DNA from: Boletus sp. NGJ | Lineage: Eukaryota; Basidiomycota; Agaricomycetes; Boletales; Boletaceae | Length of the DNA: 64,000 nucleotides | Reading direction: 5' to 3' | NCBI GenBank assembly: GCA_019096195.1 | Contig: JAGTXK010000103.1 | Span: 62,001 to 126,000 of the forward strand | Shown: positions 20,076-30,584 of the stretch, piece after piece | Layout of the letters: the number at the start of each line of letters is the position of its first letter | Numbering within the stretch: position 1 is the first letter of the stretch | Program-made: the position numbers and the translations under genes | Notes under the pieces: generated by a model | Told to the model about the DNA's origin: nothing | Database searches by the model: none | What the model saw: only the letters and a program-made list of their open reading frames with translations

Positions 20076-23000
20076 ATGGAAAGTGGACGCGCGAGCGTGT
20101 CCTTTTTTCAAGGTGCTCGAAGCGGTTCCAGGACTAAGCGATTCACTATCGATGGTTGTTTTTTCGCCTTAAACTGCTTGTCGTTTCCAGTTCACCTTTT
20201 TTGCAGGCATCGAAATTTACATTCAACCACCGCATATTACCACATTTAAGAACAAGAGATACTATCTACGATTCTCCATGAATGACGTCTCTCGGTCGAC
20301 GAAGAAGGTGATGGTGAAGGCCAACGGCGCGTCTTGGGGGGACAGTTTTTTCTTGTGAGTATTGTTTTCATGCTCTAGGTTGTCGAACTAAATGGGTTCA
20401 GTGACGGTGACGACGCTTCGGTTCTGGTGATGGAGCTCTACCAGAAGCGTCGCATAAGAAAGGACAAGCTTGTCGGCAGTCTGAAAGATACCATCAGTGC
20501 GATACTGGAAAGAGTGAGAGGTCGGGGTAAGCAAGTCAGATTTCTGTAACGAGTTCTGTTGAGACGAATTTTCATGATGACAGTGCTCGACGAGCCTCTT
20601 GGAAACGCCACATCCGGCCGCCTCGATCCTTCGGGGATTGCGATCAAGTTTTCATTAACCGCCGAACCCCATGGAGGAACTAGCAACGACGAGCGTCACG
20701 CTGACGATGTCTCTAGGACGAATGAAATGACGGCCCCCCAAATCATTGGTACCTCATCCGGCGCAGTCGATCCTAGCACAGACGCCTTGACCGAGGTACT
20801 GGCAATGGGGAAAACGTGGGGGGAACTCCTACAGAGGATCGAGTGTTTCAATGAGATTGCGGTGGGCATCCCAGAGGTATCTCGATCCATCTTCTGAACT
20901 TCCTCCCGTCTGAATGCAGTCCAGATCCATCCATACGCGTCACTGGCTTCGTCAGTATTGGCAGCAACAAACAAGGTTCGTTTTTTTTTTGTGAATGGCA
21001 TCGTCGAATCCAATGAGTGCGCTTCCCCTAGGTGCTTGCAAATCAGCAAGGTCACGATAGCAAGGTCACCACCTTGGCCAAGGTGATGAATGATGTGTTT
21101 GCGCTCGTCCACGTGGGCGACTGCTTGAAGACGATCGAGAAGCACAGAAAATTCACCACGCTTCTGATTCAACAAGTGACGGAATGCAGCTACTTCGTTG
21201 CGGAATATGCTAAACGGAAGAATTTCTGTGGGTCGCAGTCATATTTCTTGTGTTCGCAACTGATCACATGCAGGGATTCGAACTGCGAAATATGCTATCT
21301 CTGATATCCACGCAAGATTTACAGAATACGAAAACAAATTCGAAGAGCTGAGAATCGCGTTCGCGGAAGGCATCGTGTTGGATGCGGACGTCACCGTGTT
21401 TCGCATGATGAATGAGGTTCCAATCATTGGTGTGTTCCATGTCTTGACACTACGGCGTGACCCTCACAGATCTCGGATTGCAGCGGAATCGATAATGTTC
21501 GACGACATTCCATACGCATCTGGAGCTAGATATCTACGAGAAAAGGGCTGTTTGCCTGGCACCCGCGAATGCATCATCCGAGAGATCTTCGATGTTCTCA
21601 GTGATGCGTCTGAAGGCGCTCCGCAGGTGTGCCTCCTCATAGGCGTCGCTGGGTCTGGCAAGTCTTCGATCGCTCACACGATCGCTCGCCTGTATGATGG
21701 CCAAAAGAGGCTTGGGTCGTCGTTTTGCTTCGCTCGGACTGACGTCGTGATGCGTAATCCACAAAACCTCTTCAGTACGATCGCGCTTGATCTCTCTGAC
21801 CACGACCCCCAATACAAGTCCGAGCTCTGGAAGGTAGTAAAAGACAACCGAGCCCTTCGTCGATCGGTATCCCCTCTAGAGCAACTCGACCGGCTTATCG
21901 TCCAACCTAGCCAAAATCTCCACGGTGTCGGACCCCTGTTTGTGGTCATCGATGCTCTCGACGAGTGTGGTGGCCCGTCAGAACGCCAACAGCTCTTGTC
22001 AGCTTTATCTAGGCAGATAGCTGACAGTAACCTCCCACATTACCTCCGCTTCCTGATTACCGCTCGTCCGGAACCTGACATTGTCGCGGCACTGCCATCT
22101 GGGCCTCGGATCATCCACAGACAACTCGGAGACGTGGACGTGGACGTTGTTGACCGAGATATAACAAAATTCATCCAATTTTCGCTTGGCAAGTACGCGA
22201 GGCTGGAGTCTCGGTGGCCAAATGCAGAGTGGTGCCAGCTTCTGGTGCACCGTTCCGAGCAGCTCTTCCAGTGGGCCTCTACTGCGTGCAAGTTTATTGC
22301 GGGCGATGGCTCTGTGGGCTTAGATCCCTGCGAGCAGCTCGAGGTACTATTGCAGCCCCGTCGTCGTGATGCCATTCCTCTCGACTGGCTGTATCAAACG
22401 ATCCTACAGCAACTATTCAAGTCCGACCGTGCTCGACTTCGATTTCGTGAGGTGATGGCCATTCTGTTCGCCCTCAACGAACCTTTGTCTCTCGTGACGC
22501 TAGCTGTGCTTTTCGACCGACAAATGGATATGAACCTCATCATCGAGCCCATGGGATCATTGCTAGATGGTGCCATCAACCAACACAAGCCTATTCGGCC
22601 ACTCCACACATCATTCCGTGACTATTTACTGGACGAGGAGCGCAGCTCAATGTTCTATGTCCCCATCCTACCTCTCCACCATCTCTTCCTCGGACATTCC
22701 TTGCTCGCATGCATGCGGTCCATGCTCAAGTTCAACATGTGTGATCTAGAGGATTCCCGAGTCCGCAATGCTGCAATCCCTGGCCTGATCAATCGGGTGA
22801 CAGCAGCCATCCCCTCCCATATGGTGTATTCGTGCCAATACTGGATGAATCACCTGCAGCATGCAGAGTGTACTCCAGAGTTGTTGCATGAAGTCACTGT
22901 TTTCTTCAAGAACTTCTTCCCCTATTGGGTTGAAGCAATCAGCCTACTCTCCCTTTCCTCCCCATTGATACATATCCTGGCTGCCCTCGAGACCTGCACT

Positions 23001-25279
23001 ATCCTGCAGAAATGGACCAAGGTGAGATCTGTCTTCCTCATGATTTGTGAAATAATTTAGGATGAGTTCATTAGGGCTCTGAAATTGCCATTCTTGCATC
23101 AGAAGCATTCCAATTCATCCAAGTGTTTGCTCCTGTCATCAGAGAATCCACACCACATCTGTACTTGTCAGCCATGCCCCAGACACCCTCCAGCTCACCA
23201 CTCACTATCCTCTGGCTTGTACACATGCAAGATCATCTCAAAGTCACAATGGGTCACCCATCCAATTGGCCAGCAGAGGTGCATATCCTGCAGGGCCATG
23301 AACTCTGGGCAACATGTATTGCCTACTCACCTGATGGTAGCCATATAGTCTCTGGTTCTGCAGACAAGTCCCTCAGGATCTGGAATGCAAGTACTGGTCA
23401 ATGTGTGGTGGGCCCAATTCAAGGACATGCAGATTGGATCCTCTCTGTGTCTTATTCACCTGATGGCAGTCACATTGTCTCCAGCTCTGGTGACAAAACC
23501 ATTAGGATTTGGGATGCAAGCACTGGCCAGTGTGTGGCAGGTCCATTTCAGGAGCACACAGATTCAGTCTGGTCTGTTGCCTACTCACCTGATGGTAATC
23601 ACATTGTCTCTGGCTCTATAGACAAAACCATCAGGGTTTGGAATCCAAGCACTGGCCAGTGTGTGATGGGCCCATTCCAGGGGCACAAACAGTCAGTTGG
23701 ATCTGTTGCTTACTCACCAGATGGCAGCTATATTGTTTCTGGCTCTGATGATAATACCATCAGAGTTTGGGATCCAAGCACTGGCCAGTGTGTAGTGGGT
23801 CCACTTTTGGGGCATATAAGATCAGTCAAATCTGTTGCTTACTCACCAGATGGCAGCTGTGTTGTCTCTGGCTCAGCAGATCAAACCATCAGGATCTGGA
23901 ATGCAAACACTGGCCAGTGTGTAATTGGTCCAATGCAGGGACACACAGGCATTATCCTTTGTGTTGCCTATTCACCTGATGGTAATTACATTGTCTCTGG
24001 CTCTGGAGATACAACCATCAGGATCTGGAATGCAAACACTGGTCGTTGTGTGGGAGCTCCCTTGCAAGGGGCCAAAAGTGGAGTTAACTCAGTTGCCTAT
24101 TCACCTGATGGAAACCATATTATCTCTAGCTCTAGAGATAACTCCATTAGGATTTGGAATGCAAGCACTGGTGAAAGTGCTGGCAATCCATTCCAAGGAC
24201 ATCCAGAGCCCTTCTGGTCTATGTCCCTTTCTCCTGATGGTTGTCATATTGTATCTGCCTCTGGAGACACAGACATCAGCATTTGGAATGCAAGCACTGG
24301 TCAGTGCGAAATGGGTCCACTACAGGGGCATACACACACAGTTTGGTCAGTTGCTTATTCACCTGATGGAGATCATATTGTCTCTGGCTCTGAGGACAAA
24401 ACCATCAGGATTTGGAATTCAAGCACTGGTCAGTGTGTTGTAGGTCCATTGCAGGGACACACAAGCACAATTCGATCTGTTGCTTATTCACCTGATGGAA
24501 ATCATATTGTCTCTGGCTCTCTAGATGATACCATTAGGATTTGGAATTCAGGCACTGGTCAATGTGTGGTGGGTCCATTGCAAGGGCACACAAGCACTGT
24601 TGAGTCTGTTGCTTTCTCACCAGATGGCAGCTACATTGTCTCTGCCTCAAATTCAATAAACAACTCCATCAGGATTTGGAGTACAAACACTGGGCAATGT
24701 GTGGCAAGTGAATTCCATGGACACACAGATGGAGTCCAATGTGTTGTCTATTCACCTGATGGCTATCATATTGCATCTGGTTCCTGGGATAACATGATTA
24801 GAATTTTCAATCCACATTCTGGTCAATGTATGGTGGGTCCAATGCAAGGGCATACAGAGTCAATTCTGTCTATTGCCTACTCACCAGATGGGAGCTACAT
24901 AGTCTCAGGCTCTGCAGACAGGACTCTTAGGATTTGGAGCACAAGCACTGGTCAGTGTGTGGCAGGTCCATTCCAACACACAGACTGGGTCAGCTCTGTT
25001 GCCTATTCACCTCATAACAACTGCATTCTTTCTGGATCTTTTGATGGTACCATCAGGGTGTGGACTCTGCAGCCTGGTGTAGCTTTTGAGGATTGGCACC
25101 AGAAAGAGGATGGGTGGGTGGAGACTTCTAATGGTGATTCCATTTGTTGGATCCCACCCTGGGCTAGGCATGTTGTATATCATCCCAGAAATCTCCAGAT
25201 TATCTCCTTACATCACCCTTATAAGCTTGGCCTTCATATATTTCCATATGCAAAGTCTTGGATCCAATGTTGGATTTGA
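20076..25279 (+). CDS. STAND/NLR receptor: C2-like, helical region, NACHT, 14 WD40 repeats
   Basis: A 1,614-residue signal-transducing ATPase of the fungal NLR type (HET-E/HET-D-like), a class implicated in self/non-self recognition and cell death. Eight exons join in frame: 20,076-20,154, 20,207-20,354, 20,402-20,526, 20,584-20,876, 20,925-20,975, 21,032-21,227, 21,274-23,021 and 23,075-25,279. Residues about 20-120 resemble a C2 domain (IEIYIQPPHITTFKNKRYYL, then ASWGDSFFF). A helical region follows to about 380. The NACHT has Walker A GVAGSGKSS and Walker B PLFVVIDALDECGG. Typical agaricomycete linkers (HTSFRDYLLD; VFAPVIRESTPHLYLSA) lead into 14 WD repeats of 43 residues, enough for two seven-bladed propellers. 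The repeats are nearly identical, while the WD40 exon is strikingly poor in CpG. The start ATG is the first that splices into the C2 frame. A WD40-TPR-HET gene lies 1.06 kb downstream on the same strand. Confidence 0.9.
23281..25078 (+). repeat. Array of 14 tandem 129-bp WD40-coding repeats
   Basis: Each unit encodes about 43 residues on the pattern H-x5-SVAYSPDGxxIVSGSxDxTIRIWNxxTGQCVxGPxQG. Units 1-6, 9, 10 and 13 are closest to each other. Unit 7 lacks the opening His, unit 8 has a diverged first strand, unit 11 carries two extra residues (ASNSINNSIRIW), unit 12 is diverged, and unit 14 ends without the usual tail. Variation between units gathers at the positions just after the H and before the D-x-T of the blade, the surface positions that vary in HET-E-type proteins. 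Confidence 0.9.
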
Positions 25280-26342
25280 TTATACACTCTGCTCTACTGT
25301 ATATGGCCTTCTTTCTGCACCTTACTATACTATACTGAGACTTATGTACATGCTTCAAGATTCATTGCTCCTCGTCTGTTAACTTCAGTCTTGATAACAA
25401 CATGTCTATCCTTTACATCTTGTGACTCATGTTTCATTCACTGGAGGACATGTTGATGAGGCCCTTGTATCATACAATCGAGGTATATAGAGAAGTGATA
25501 CATCTCGTTGGGGCTCTTGAATGCATGTCACATAACTGACCGTGTTCTATACACCTCGTCATCGTTGATTTGCGAGAACTGGGAGAGGATGTAATGGTAC
25601 ATGCCATGCACCGAGCAAAATACAACATGTACCCAATCCAAGGGCTGTGCTACGTCTCAACGGGTCGACGTGCAGAAGGGCATAACTGAAGCGGTATTAC
25701 TTGGTGGTTGGTCTATACTTTCGAGTTCAAGTTCCCGATGTCGAGGTAACACGCGAGGCGGGTTGAAACGTATATATAGGCTCAAGAAGCCACGAGATCT
25801 CCACCGAATGTCTAGATGTAGATTAGCCCGGAGAACCAATTTGAACTCAGGAAATGGAATTCTAAATGACCAAGCGGGCATTTACATGTACTTATGCTGC
25901 CATCGCTTTCGAGAGTTGGAACACAATAGTCCGACGAAACAGTAACCAGGTCAGCGTAAAAGCTAGAAATTGTGAGATAGGCGAATCCAATGTCAACTGA
26001 CCTAGGATAATCTTGACTAGTCATGTTGATCAGCATCAGCCGCTATCGCATCAGCCTGGATGATGACACTCGGGTCCCTTGAAGCTTGAGATGTACATAT
26101 GCTGATAAGTCCTCCTCATGCCTTTGTGTAACGACCTTGTAAAATGGTGTCAGATGCGGGTACCGCTACGATAGATCCAAGTCCGACAAGCGCCCAAGCC
26201 ACGCGAGAGAGCATTTGTGGCTCACACCTAGCCCACTTTGAATAATACACACCTTTATCTTCGCTCTGCCTCGTTCTGATACCCGCAGAGCCCTATCGCT
26301 CAACATGCTGCCAACGAATACCGGTGCGCAGTAGCGTTCTAA
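25280..26342. other. Intergenic region between the two recognition genes
   Basis: This 1.06 kb contains the presumed 3' UTR of the receptor (AT-rich, up to about 25,440) and the promoter of the WD40-TPR-HET gene. Open frames at 25,601-25,945 (+) and 25,812-26,036 (-) are short and motif-free. CpG frequency returns to normal from about 25,376. No gene is called. Confidence 0.45.
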
Positions 26343-29300
26343 ATGGGTGAAGCGAGAATGCTGACCGTTCATCAAGACGGCGTGAAAATCGTCACTATTG
26401 ATTGCCAAGACAAAGTATGCTCGGTAGCGTTCCACCCTGATGGAAGGCACATAGTGGGTGGTGGTTGGGAAGGAAGGCTTCGACAATGGGAAGTAGAAGA
26501 TGGCCTCGAAGTTGGAAAGGCGATGGAAGCGGGCTACCCTGTCTTCGCTGTCGGAGTTTCGAGGGATGGCCGCTGGATCGTAAGTGGCGGTAGGGCTGGG
26601 AAGGTGACTGTTTGGGACGCCAGGACACACCAAAAGGTCGTCGAAGCGGAGGGACACAAGGACACGGTGGTGGCGATTGACATTTCACCAGACTCGACGA
26701 CGTTTATAACGGGATCAGGTGACCGCACCGCGATCATATGGGACATCCAGACAGGCCAAAAACTTGTTGGCCCGTTGGAACACGACTATCGGGTGCACGT
26801 CGTCAAGTTCTCACCCGGTGTCTTTGTTATTGGTGATCGATTTGCGACCGTCCAGGCGCATTCAGCACCAGTTCGTATCTTCGACAGTCAGTCGGGTAAA
26901 CTACTCGTCAAGACCCAAGTTGAATTCGGGTCGCGCTTCAATGCAAACCTCGTCTGGTCCCAGGATGGACAGAAAATCTTTGCTACTCCCTGTCACGGAA
27001 ACAAGATCCTGTGTCTCGATGGGGTCACTGGTTCGTTGCTCGCAGAATGGACTACACAGGACGTACATGTTCAGTTCCCCTTGCTGGCAAGCAGCGGGCT
27101 CTCTAACTTGCTCGCATTGCACTCTCGTGACCACATTTCGTTTTGGGACGCTGCACATACAAATCAACGGGTTGGTTCGGTTGCTAGACCACAATCTGTG
27201 GTTAGCATGGCCCTGTCGCCCGACGACAACCGTCTTGTAAGTATTGGAGAAGACAAGAAAGTTACGATCCGAAGACTCCGTCCTATTCTCTCCCAGTCCT
27301 ATGTGATCAATACGTTCTCTGCAGAAAATCCCCAGCAGACCATGACTCAAAGCCCGGGCATGTCTCCCCATCCGCCCCAGGGTATTGTAAGTTGCCTCCG
27401 AGCCTAATGTAAATATTGTGTGTCATCTGATTGTTTCCTTCTCAGCTACAGACCGAAACTCAGTTACCACTCATGCATGTCAACAGTACAGCTTTCAGTC
27501 CGTGGATACGCGATGAGCTCATTGAGACTGAGGCCTTGCTCACGGATGAAATTACCATGGCCACGAAGGATAGTCATCATGCACTCGCCAATCGCGCTCT
27601 TATACGTGCACACCGGCAAGACTGCAGCGCAGCGATTGACGATGCCAAAAACGTAAATTTCTTTCAATTCTTCTGCGTGGCCGTGCTCACGCGAGTCTAC
27701 TCCAAGTCGATCAGAACCCAACCATCTGTCATGGGTTACATCGCTCTGGCTATCGCACACATTCGTAGCTGCGAACGCGATGCAGGATTCAAGGCCCTAG
27801 ATTTTGCATTCAAGCAATGTTATCCGAGTGATCTTGACTTTCTTCTGCTAATCAAGGTGTGCATTCCGTGTCACGTATTTCTACCACTATCCAACCTCTC
27901 CAAGGCCATCATCTTGTATGTGGACAAGAAGTATGACGACGCGATGACGCGCGTTCATGCGTTGATCAATGCCACGGATGACAAGTCAATGTATTACTCT
28001 GTTCTGGCACGTATCGACTGTGATATCATACTCACGATGTTACTGACGTTTTCCGCAGAGCCAAATGTATTTTCTCCACGGAATCGCGCGGATGGAACAG
28101 GGCCAGTACGAACATGCAATTCAATGTTTTGAGCGTGCACAGGTCCCGGTCCAAACTCATCTAAGTCCTCATCTGGAGGCGATCATGCTGGTGAGATATT
28201 TTCATCGCAGCCCCACGATATATAATACTAACTGGCTTTGAAGATGTTTAGATGGAATTTTGATGGACTAGGAATCACTGTTCAACGGTGCCTATGTGAG
28301 GCTCTATACGCTGTGGGTCGAACAAGAGAGGCTGCGGAAGCCCTTCTCAAGATGATTAGTACCTCTGGTGAAGAGGTCCGAAAGGGCGTGGGGCATTCAG
28401 AATGGGTGACTGGTGAGTTTTACTATGACCAATTTTGTTGATGTACATTCAAACTCTCCCCATTAGATTTTATGAGGCGATGTATAGCAACGTTCGAAAC
28501 TGAGGGTGATACTGCATCGAGTTCAGGAAACCACGAGGAAGCCATCAATCAGTACTCGGTCGCACTTTCCCTCGATCCAACTGCTCACGGTCTCTTTCTC
28601 AAGCGAAGTAAGGCCCGAGCACTAAAGGCGCTGTGGGAGGATGCTTTGAGGGATGCGAACAAGGTATGGCATTCACTCACTGCGTAATTCTCCGTGCTTA
28701 GTTGCACCTATCAGGCGGTCGAGTTTGACCCCTCGTCCCCTTGGGGGTATGAACAAAAACGCGCCGTACTTCACGGGGCTGGTTGTTACGCCGAGGCAAT
28801 AGACGCACACAAGTCCACGCTTTTGATGTTCGGGCAATCTTCCGATCCAGACATTCGAGGTACGTACACATTCGAATGGCACGAAACATGTCTTCTAATA
28901 TCTATGTGTAGAACATTTTCGTCAGTACGTCGATCCCTCAGCAACGGAGGGGGAAATTCGGAGAGTCATCAAGCAAACCATCCGTGATACGCCGAGCGTG
29001 CTCATCAACACATTCAACGGCCGCCTTTATGACAAGGGCAAACAAATAGCCGTCTTCGAGGCTCTCCCAATTTTCAAGGAGCTCGTTTCCTCAATGACGA
29101 GAAAGCTTGATCTTCCCCGTATCGAACAAGTAGTGAAAGAATACTATCGATATGTAATGCTCTCGCATAGATGGGAAGAAAACGAACCCTTGTTCGAGAA
29201 GGTGGTGAACATATCAATCTACAATCTCGAGGTATCTCCAGCGAACGAGAAGTTACGAAGGTTCTGTTCACTCGTACGCGATGCTGGATTCCATTGGGCA

Positions 29301-30584
29301 TGGAGTGACACATGCTGTATCGACAAGAGCAACAGCTCAGTACTGCAGCAGTCGTTGGTCGCCATGTTCACATGGTATCACGACTCATCATTGACGATCG
29401 TCTTCCTTCGAGGCGTGGGGAAGCTTGCAAAATCTGGTGATCTGCGAAGAAGTACGTGGAACACTCGAGCATGGACATTTCAAGAGTACCTTGCCTCTAC
29501 AGCCATCCAATTCTACACAGAGGACTGGTCCCTGTATCTGAACTTGGATGTCTTTAATCATAAAGACGTGCCAGACATTGTCTTGGAGATGGAGCAGGCG
29601 ACCGGGGCCCCTGCACATCAGTTGCTTACACTTCACCCGGGATTCGACAACATTCGGGAGAAGCTCCACCTGGCATCAACTCGCGAAACGACCCTTGTCG
29701 AAGATGCCGCATACTCGTTGTTGGGGATATTTTCTGTCCGGGGTATGCCAGTCATATATGGTGAAGGGAAAGAGGCACTAGGTCGACTCTTGGAAAATAT
29801 TCTCTCGGGATCTGGAGATTCAAGCATCCTTGCCTGGACAGGAAAACCAAGCAGTTATAATACTTGTCTTCCAGACGACATCACTGTATTCGGACAGCTG
29901 GCGACCTCTCACCTTCCCCGACCCCTCACGGATACCGAGATGGACACGATCGTCAAACAATTACGGGCGTCGTTGCTAGACGTAGACTTAGCAGCAGCTC
30001 TGTATGACCGACTTCATGACCTTCCCTCTCCGTCGTGCTCGGTACGACGATTGAAACTTCCCTGTATCATGTTTCCCCTTGGTACCGTCATACCTTCTCG
30101 CATGAGCGCTCCGGTCCGCACATATCACGCCTGGGTTCCTGCCCTCGGTGTTGTGGATATCATGGCAACAGAAGATCTTTCGATGCTGGAACATCTATAT
30201 CTCGTTCATCCATGGATCCATGATCTGCTCGACCGAGAACATCCGAGAAGCGCCACCATCAAGGATGACCTCGCCCTCCCTCTGCCACCCCTGAATGAAG
30301 ACAATTCCACGTCCGAAGATCCTACAACATACCGACGATTGTTATCCTACGAAGCGCCACCTCTCCCTTCTCTCCGCAGAGTACCAATGGACAAGCAGAC
30401 ACGTGCTTTGCGGCTCGTTGCCCGTCTCCAGCAACCATTTGGCGCGTTGTTGCTTACACCGAACCGTGAGGGCAGCATGGAGTACAAGAGGGTAGCCACT
30501 AACTGCGTGATCACCGTTCGAGTGCAGGAAGATGTGGATCTTTCGCATCTTGTGCACAATGTGCGTACTCTGGATGTGCTGTAG
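26343..30584 (+). CDS. WD40-TPR-HET domain protein (heterokaryon-incompatibility type)
   Basis: A large agaricomycete-type fusion. Exon 1 (26,343-27,386) encodes about seven degenerate WD repeats (for example VFAVGVSRDGRWIVSGGRAG, FITGSGDRTAIIWD). Exons at 27,446-27,652, 27,707-27,856, 27,905-about 28,010, 28,059-28,190, 28,244-28,412 and onward encode TPR-like helices (ALANRALIRAHRQDCSAAID; AINQYSVALSLDPTAHGLFL). From about 28,913 the last exon encodes a HET domain: YVMLSHRWEENEP, HWAWSDTCCIDKSNSSVLQQ, LTIVFLRGV and STWNTRAWTFQEYLASTAIQ are its three conserved blocks. HET domains execute incompatibility cell death in filamentous fungi. The WD40/TPR junction is phase-clean across 27,387-27,445; the donor near 28,000-28,015 is uncertain. 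An alternative reading is two adjacent genes, but the linking intron favours one. It probably functions with the upstream receptor. Confidence 0.82.

Follow-up and report, generated by a model that had tools for sequence, protein, structure and literature searches.

An NLR gene in the 64,000-nucleotide stretch of Boletus sp. NGJ DNA analyzed here (referred to as the window) contains a CpG desert with only three internal CpGs and, by counts in the window sequence, a CpG observed-to-expected ratio (o/e) of 0.03. The desert is not unique to this gene, as two paralogous NLRs of the same genome have it as well. That a local, CpG-specific mutation pressure is acting here is close to certain. With reasonable confidence, the desert can be read as the footprint of a CpG-specific mutation process, most likely of the 5mC type, that is aimed at homogenized tandem arrays; judged from the sequence, 5mC is the likely agent of mutation and tandem homology its probable trigger. 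In the proposed scenario, a long-lasting C-to-T pressure, local and specific for CpG, on the homogenized WD40 tandem array would have produced the desert, with symmetric CpG methylation by enzymes of the DNMT1/DNMT5 type and subsequent 5mC deamination as the most likely agent and with a leak of approximately 0.3 to 0.7 kb into the unique flanks. Purifying selection would have kept the receptor by way of synonyms (NNC|G to NNT|G, NCG to NCA, and CGN to AGR), and the loss of CpG would have been still running after the present units diverged. The preliminary description of this DNA proposed repeat-directed CpG mutation coupled to diversification of a recognition surface; the loss in the CpG context, the open frame, and the purifying selection agree with the former part of that reading, and the coupling finds no support.

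Over positions 22,990 to 25,376, the o/e values are 0.03 for CpG (four counted, the fourth at the edge), 1.51 for TpG, and 1.82 for CpA, compared to whole-window baselines of 0.98, 1.18, and 1.14, respectively, an excess of TpG and CpA that had been anticipated in the preliminary description. Successive CpGs lie at positions 22,988; 24,044; 24,307; 24,473; and 25,373, so that the count of three and their positions, initially obtained by reading the letters, were exact. The desert holds the two longest CpG gaps of the window, at 1,056 and 900 bp; away from the desert and its edge, the longest gap is 132 bp. In 1-kb steps, the CpG o/e of the window outside the desert is 0.61 to 1.25, and in 460 background bins of 500 bp, taken from the window outside 22,401 to 25,600 and from loci L011 to L027, it averages 1.02 with a standard deviation of 0.18, the two lowest bins being in L018 and L022. 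The neighboring sequences are CpG-rich, as described previously, with o/e values of 1.00 in the NACHT exon (21,375 to 22,821) and 0.95 in each of the downstream WD40 and HET open reading frames (ORFs). These adjoining ORFs (26343 to 30584) encode a HET domain (Pfam, 2e-11) and WD40 repeats that have diverged.

The desert was initially thought to be confined to the WD40 exon. However, it starts within the NACHT exon, approximately 33 to 34 bp from the 3' end of that exon (CpGs are sparse from position 22,831), includes the intron, and has its right edge 93 bp beyond the stop codon (25,277 to 25,279). Beginning upstream of the intron and ending downstream of the stop codon, it tracks the array rather than the exon: its center is the 129-bp tandem WD40 array, with approximately 300 bp of spill into unique sequence on either side (Table 1). 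Since only three CpGs are left in the desert, bisulfite analysis would be nearly blind there, and the CpGs at its edges are the informative sites. Splicing out the intron gives a single predicted open frame of 1,283 amino acids counted from 21,375 (by frame check only), and the 734 codons of the WD40 exon are open, in agreement with the intact frame claimed earlier. The combination of a NACHT/STAND domain with a following WD40 array in one frame, a feature of fungal NACHT-WD40 NLRs, is present in this gene. In the array, TRF recognized 12.8 copies of the 129-bp period at 23,319 to 24,972.

Table 1. Coordinates of the window NLR gene and of its CpG desert (positions in the window)
Feature	Position	Strand	Evidence
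NACHT (NPHP3_N/STAND) coding exon, CpG-normal but for the last ~200 bp	21375..23021	+	Pfam NPHP3_N 1.3e-21, NACHT 4.2e-7
53-bp intron, GT...AG	23022..23074	+	Frame check
WD40 exon, 734 aa + stop, frame intact	23075..25279	+	Pfam WD40, 14 stretches, 5.3e-159
WD40 array in tandem, period 129 bp; mean DNA identity between pairs of units 0.68	23279..25063	+	TRF
CpG desert, 3 internal CpGs	22989..25372	.	CpG counts
Left shoulder, unique (NACHT exon end, intron, exon 2 start), CpG-free	22989..23278	.	
Right shoulder (C-terminal tail codons, stop codon, 3' flank), CpG-free	25064..25372	.	
Residual CpG 1, unit 6 column 40; CA in 10/11 other aligned units	24044..24045	.	
Residual CpG 2, unit 8 columns 41/42; TG in 10/11 other aligned units	24307..24308	.	
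Residual CpG 3, unit 10, hypervariable column 11	24473..24474	.	

When the window array was used as a DNA query against the genome, it matched the window itself (contig C114), C137:42.5-44.3 kb (71%), C41:44.1-45.9 kb (70%), and, over a short piece, C137:69 kb; the C137 array as the query retrieved these four places again. Both paralogs have the same intron and C-terminal tail as the window gene. The C137 gene keeps an intact frame in both exons. In the C41 gene (locus L010, minus strand, in the region of C41:46.4 kb), a length difference disrupts the NACHT frame and the WD40 exon is open over 738 codons; the C41 NACHT domain is absent from the eight NACHT matches in the genome. The CpGs observed in the arrays of the window, C137, and C41 number 3, 1, and 4, respectively, compared to 98.5, 99.4, and 101.9 predicted from base composition, the single CpG of C137 being bordered by gaps of 939 and 2,031 bp and C41 having five gaps of 305 to 730 bp. 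For the three deserts pooled, the o/e is 0.02 for CpG and 1.80 for CpA, and the mean DNA identity of the units is 0.68, 0.76, and 0.67 (same order). The edge of the desert before the intron falls at differing homologous positions in the three paralogs, i.e., 34, about 228, and about 133 bp upstream. Up to these edges, the NACHT exons are CpG-normal at 0.58 to 0.82 identity between the paralogs (150-column blocks), so that inter-locus homology of this degree does not act as the trigger. As the three desert arrays represent one gene family, the assignment of the trigger rests on few independent cases. The short piece at C137:69,050-69,631 (L044, 2050 to 2631), approximately 25 kb from the C137 gene, is a remnant of the WD40 and C-terminal-tail sequence of the C137 family that is CpG-free over ~580 bp and is set in CpG-normal sequence.

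The unique flanks of the arrays share the depletion. The CpG-free flanks measure 290 and 309 bp in the window, 475 and 712 bp in C137, and 388 and 298 bp in C41, with normal CpG resuming approximately 0.3 to 0.7 kb on either side of each array. If a fixed 300 bp is taken on either side, the three arrays are flanked by 2 CpGs in 1,800 bp, compared to about 80 expected (scaled from 109.6 per 2,472 bp); these were counted in fixed 100-bp bins and are given with no Poisson value, since a shoulder is defined as ending at its first CpG. The remaining sequence read, 240.8 kb, has three CpG-free stretches of at least 290 bp, two of which fall in L028. In all six flanks, TpG and CpA are 1.38 to 1.66 times and 1.17 to 1.81 times their expectation, respectively; a polarity test of the shoulders had only six informative sites (TG, 2; CA, 2; AG, 1; AA, 1), which is too few. 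This excess of the mutational products, the extension of the desert over the intron and the sequence beyond the stop codon, and the lack of CpG over the ~580 bp of the short remnant make it unlikely that the desert reflects selection for CpG avoidance, in which alleles without CpG would escape methylation and silencing, so that selection at the DNA level and not mutation alone would be at work. That explanation would fit the intact frames in the window gene and in the two C137 exons, the inability of a CpG-less array to carry CpG methylation, and a depletion that is greater than the about 5-fold loss reported for the human genome (PMC13297926).

Codon usage in the deserts is consistent with CpG-specific mutation under preservation of the protein. 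In the NNY codons of the three deserts, the wobble base is C in 3 of 432 cases (and T in 429) where G follows and C in 539 of 1,000 (T in 461) where any other base follows. The NACHT exons of these genes, trimmed so as to exclude the desert, give fractions of 123/238 and 304/501, respectively. The deserts contain NCG as 1 of 665 NCN codons, with NCA making up 39%, compared to 23% NCG and 21% NCA in the NACHT exons. Arginine is encoded by AGR in 58 of 62 codons of the deserts versus 14 of 98 in the NACHT exons; in the 12 aligned window units, this fraction is 14/16, which bears out the reported preference for AGG/AGA. At column 32 of the WD unit, Arg is encoded by AGR in 32 of 37 desert units and by CGN in none of the 37, whereas CGN is used in 7 of the 8 aligned units of the C65 array, a control described below. 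Such CpG-free synonyms in place of CpG codons indicate that the protein was kept while the CpG codons went. At the CpG columns of C65, the desert units have TG (0.23) and CA (0.17), which is the expected direction, with CT (0.15) and AG (0.11) also common. TpA o/e is 0.56 over the three deserts versus 0.55 in the NACHT exons. Wherever aligned units are compared, here and below (column 32, wobble mismatch between units, variable columns, and nearest-unit differences), 12, 13, and 12 units were used for the window, C137, and C41, respectively, and 8 for C65 where it is included, other units being left out.

The removal of CpG also persisted. Between window units, the C/T wobble mismatch is 0.463 at non-CpG positions (saturation, 0.498) and 0.027 before G; the corresponding values are 0.244 (saturation, 0.500) and 0.000 in C137 and 0.324 (saturation, 0.486) and 0.035 in C41. 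As other wobble positions turned over and those at CpG sites stayed fixed, the removal of CpG went on after the units diverged and therefore continued, through mutation, unit conversion, or selection. With this much turnover in the window units, CpGs should be back if a CpG-poor founder unit had simply been amplified and concerted evolution had kept the array CpG-free with no special mutation process. The units do share a period at the DNA level, and copying between them could erase new CpGs; however, the lack of CpG extends to the unique sequence that borders each of the three arrays, left and right, and such a founder effect is very unlikely. Import of the WD40 exon from a CpG-lacking genome or compartment, offered in the preliminary description as a second possibility, meets the same difficulty, in that CpGs were not regained while other wobble positions moved. 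In addition, the intron and the C-terminal tail are common to all three paralogs, and the desert edges are at unlike homologous positions. The CpG-free WD40 remnant in CpG-normal sequence near C137:69 kb suggests that desert segments may move, and the fraction of C at non-CpG wobble positions, 54% versus 61% in the NACHT exons, differs modestly (P = 0.013). Still, import as the sole cause is disfavored and appears highly improbable.

Other WD40 repeats of the genome served as controls. The WD40 clusters were drawn from the best 150 of 1,059 WD40 candidates, with about 1% of the genome read and only clusters with at least 2 scored units included. The 13 clusters other than the deserts have CpG o/e of 0.83 to 1.19 and a mean best-pair unit identity of 0.50 to 0.66, versus 0.75 to 0.84 in the deserts; this is the control named in the preliminary description, and WD40 genes with diverged repeats indeed keep normal CpG. 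The single long control array among them, C65, has 12 scored units, a mean best-pair identity of 0.66, and a CpG o/e of 1.14; most other control clusters have 2 to 4 scored units. Among 20 loci and the window, TRF arrays (score of at least 150, period above 30) were found at the three desert loci only. The ankyrin regions in C40 and C114 have no TRF array, and their CpG o/e values are 0.70 and 1.05, respectively. The polyubiquitin gene, a tandem array with 79 to 83% unit identity, has a CpG o/e of 0.78 over 837 bp. As it is not depleted, tandem homology alone is insufficient, and array length, unit number, or expression may be an extra factor.

Transposons of this genome decay in the same direction as the arrays. 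Among the 150 RT matches listed, 64 contain a total of 108 in-frame stops, of which 98 are TGA, 3 are TAA, and 7 are TAG (by hand tally), a bias that CGA-to-TGA changes would give. Six stop-bearing RT loci, five of them picked for several stops, have CpG o/e of 0.33 to 0.83 (the mildest, L049, has a TpG value of 0.98); since these retroelements reach only such values, the arrays were hit harder or longer. The seven top-scoring retroelement loci (L035 to L041) have CpG o/e of 1.10 to 1.23, so dispersed repeats are not promptly mutated, unlike in efficient RIP. Slow decay would fit both classes of RT loci, provided that transposons are subject to turnover and the arrays have been resident for long. 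Loci L035 to L040, with equal or similar scores and CpG o/e of 1.20 to 1.23, apparently are young, near-identical copies (by score, not by alignment) without CpG decay. Spread of methylation into the array from an adjacent transposon is scarcely credible, as each desert is centered on its array and gives way to CpG-normal sequence within approximately 0.3 to 0.7 kb on both sides, even though the stop-bearing retroelements are CpG-poor and a CpG-poor region with a DDE transposase remnant (L028, L050) lies ~59 kb past the window end on the same contig.

The genome encodes the enzymes that the proposed methylation would require. Matches to PF00145 number five, at four loci, and include one DNMT5, two DNMT1-like sequences, and a match at C45:227 kb. 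The DNMT5 candidate matches PDB entry 7r76 (record title, Rad8), which we take to be the Cryptococcus DNMT5, with 1.5e-74. Locus L031, in which both the BAH and the DNA_methylase domains score over the cutoff, is a clear DNMT1-like locus; in the second (L033/L032), DNA_methylase is over the cutoff and BAH is under it, making it only a probable one. Genes for CpG methyltransferases are thus present: DNMT5 plus one or more DNMT1-like loci with BAH. A review names DNMT1 with an RFD, together with DNMT5, as the enzymes of CpG methylation in Basidiomycota and lists two DNMT1 and one DNMT5 for Coprinopsis and Laccaria (PMC7862722); the Boletus set is DNMT5 and one clear plus one probable DNMT1-like locus, the latter two being recognized by BAH and DNA_methylase.

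Several known systems resemble this case in part. Classical RIP acts on duplications in the premeiotic dikaryon, involves a methyltransferase of the RID/Masc1 type, and makes C-to-T changes mainly at CpA; in the three deserts, CpA is in excess (1.80) and it is CpG that is lost (0.02). The pattern of CpG-biased decay in basidiomycetes, i.e., loss of CpG with gain of TpG and CpA, is found here, as is the same decay in the transposons of the genome (98 of 108 RT stops are TGA), although the seven top loci are at 1.10 to 1.23. In the portions of the basidiomycete studies drawn on here (Amselem 2015, PMC4352252; Rhizoctonia solani AG8, PMC4014442), CpG likewise changes to TpG, a Masc2/DNMT1-type enzyme occurs without RID, and, in R. 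solani, TGA is the main nonsense product (PMC4014442). However, the targets described there are transposons or genome-wide single nucleotide polymorphisms, whereas the Boletus target is an array of tandem units that lies within open receptor genes and whose depletion has edges. MIP of Ascobolus, in which repeats are methylated but not mutated (PMC13297926, PMC4352252), is similar in that repeat-directed methylation with passive deamination would leave the Boletus pattern. It differs in having methylation, premeiotic timing, and Masc1, while the Boletus case is known here from its sequence pattern. Highly internally conserved WD, ANK, and TPR arrays of fungal NLRs, including those of basidiomycetes, were reported by Dyrka (2014; PMC4986451), whose sampled text names RIP for repeats of this sort and describes the same array type and gene architecture. 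The internal-conservation threshold of that work is >85% repeat identity in protein, and the Boletus values (0.68, 0.76, and 0.67) are at the DNA level. No report of CpG-depleted NLR arrays was found among the titles and abstract starts retrieved by keyword from the open-access literature, and the present case is read as repeat-directed CpG decay of a known kind, newly seen aimed at open receptor arrays.

The closest precedent is the proposal that RIP supplies mutations to the WD40 arrays of the NWD/HNWD (het-d/het-e) genes of Podospora anserina (Paoletti 2007, PMC1805685), which, like the Boletus genes, combine NACHT with a homogenized WD40 array. According to the account of the Podospora arrays in that paper, the context is CpA, and the CA/TA and TG/TA ratios of the WD domains are like those of the rest of the genome, the footprint being maybe blurred. 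Because of this possible blurring, the 2007 work could not demonstrate RIP on the arrays and did not settle whether fungal NLR repeats undergo repeat-directed mutation. In the Boletus arrays, C is lost in the CpG context, and the almost complete footprint has internal controls in the unique flanks, the wobble context, and the diverged arrays. The Podospora codons under positive selection given there, 7, 9, 25, and 27 (flanking 8 and 26), correspond to Boletus columns 9, 11, 27, and 29 (flanking V10 and D28) if the +2 offset from the present alignment is used. The seven columns of highest variability include 8, 9, 27, and 29 in every one of the three arrays and column 11 in two of them.

Of the 966 nearest-unit differences scored for the three arrays, 7 are CpG/TpG/CpA transitions (44 of 405 in C65), as are 3 of 323 at the seven hypervariable columns, so diversification by CpG mutation is not supported, and neither is the coupling of the mutation process to diversification of the recognition surface put forward in the preliminary description. 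The supply of CpG is spent, and the process now limits codons without visibly supplying variants; past CpG changes that became fixed everywhere would escape the nearest-unit count. As a candidate feeder of the hypervariable codons, CpG mutation also lacks support in that transitions at codon positions 1 and 2 make up 0.35 to 0.47 of the differences there versus 0.53 to 0.72 in the rest of the unit. The ratio of dN to dS at the seven columns, which were chosen by eye, is 1.74 in C137 and 0.33 in C41 and is not computable in the window (dS saturated), compared to 0.24 to 0.32 across the rest of the unit; as the columns were picked from the same alignments, tests on them are partly circular. These data suggest a role opposite to the proposed one, i.e., a lasting constraint to which the gene has adapted. 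It is possible, if doubtful, that homology-sensing CpG methylation and mutation on functional receptor genes rendered them CpG-free and thus poor targets, leaving a homogenized, recombining array unsilenced, with the codons of the recognition surface constrained and not diversified. The question becomes testable in sequenced mushrooms by plotting CpG o/e against unit identity across NLR arrays.

Two minor observations concern the surroundings. On contig C114, CpG-poor stretches with G+C of 0.41 to 0.45 were seen in L028 (6946 to 10000), L050, and L018 (1 to 660), at 184.9-192.0 kb and 200.0-200.7 kb, with CpG o/e of 0.23, 0.28, and 0.37, respectively (the last over L018 1 to 1000); one ORF of L028 matches DDE_3 over the cutoff and another matches DDE_1 under it, consistent with a transposase remnant. 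In C22, WD40 matches at 164-184 kb and 302-322 kb form two equal-scoring pairs whose order is mirrored, which suggests a large inverted duplication or an assembly duplicate.
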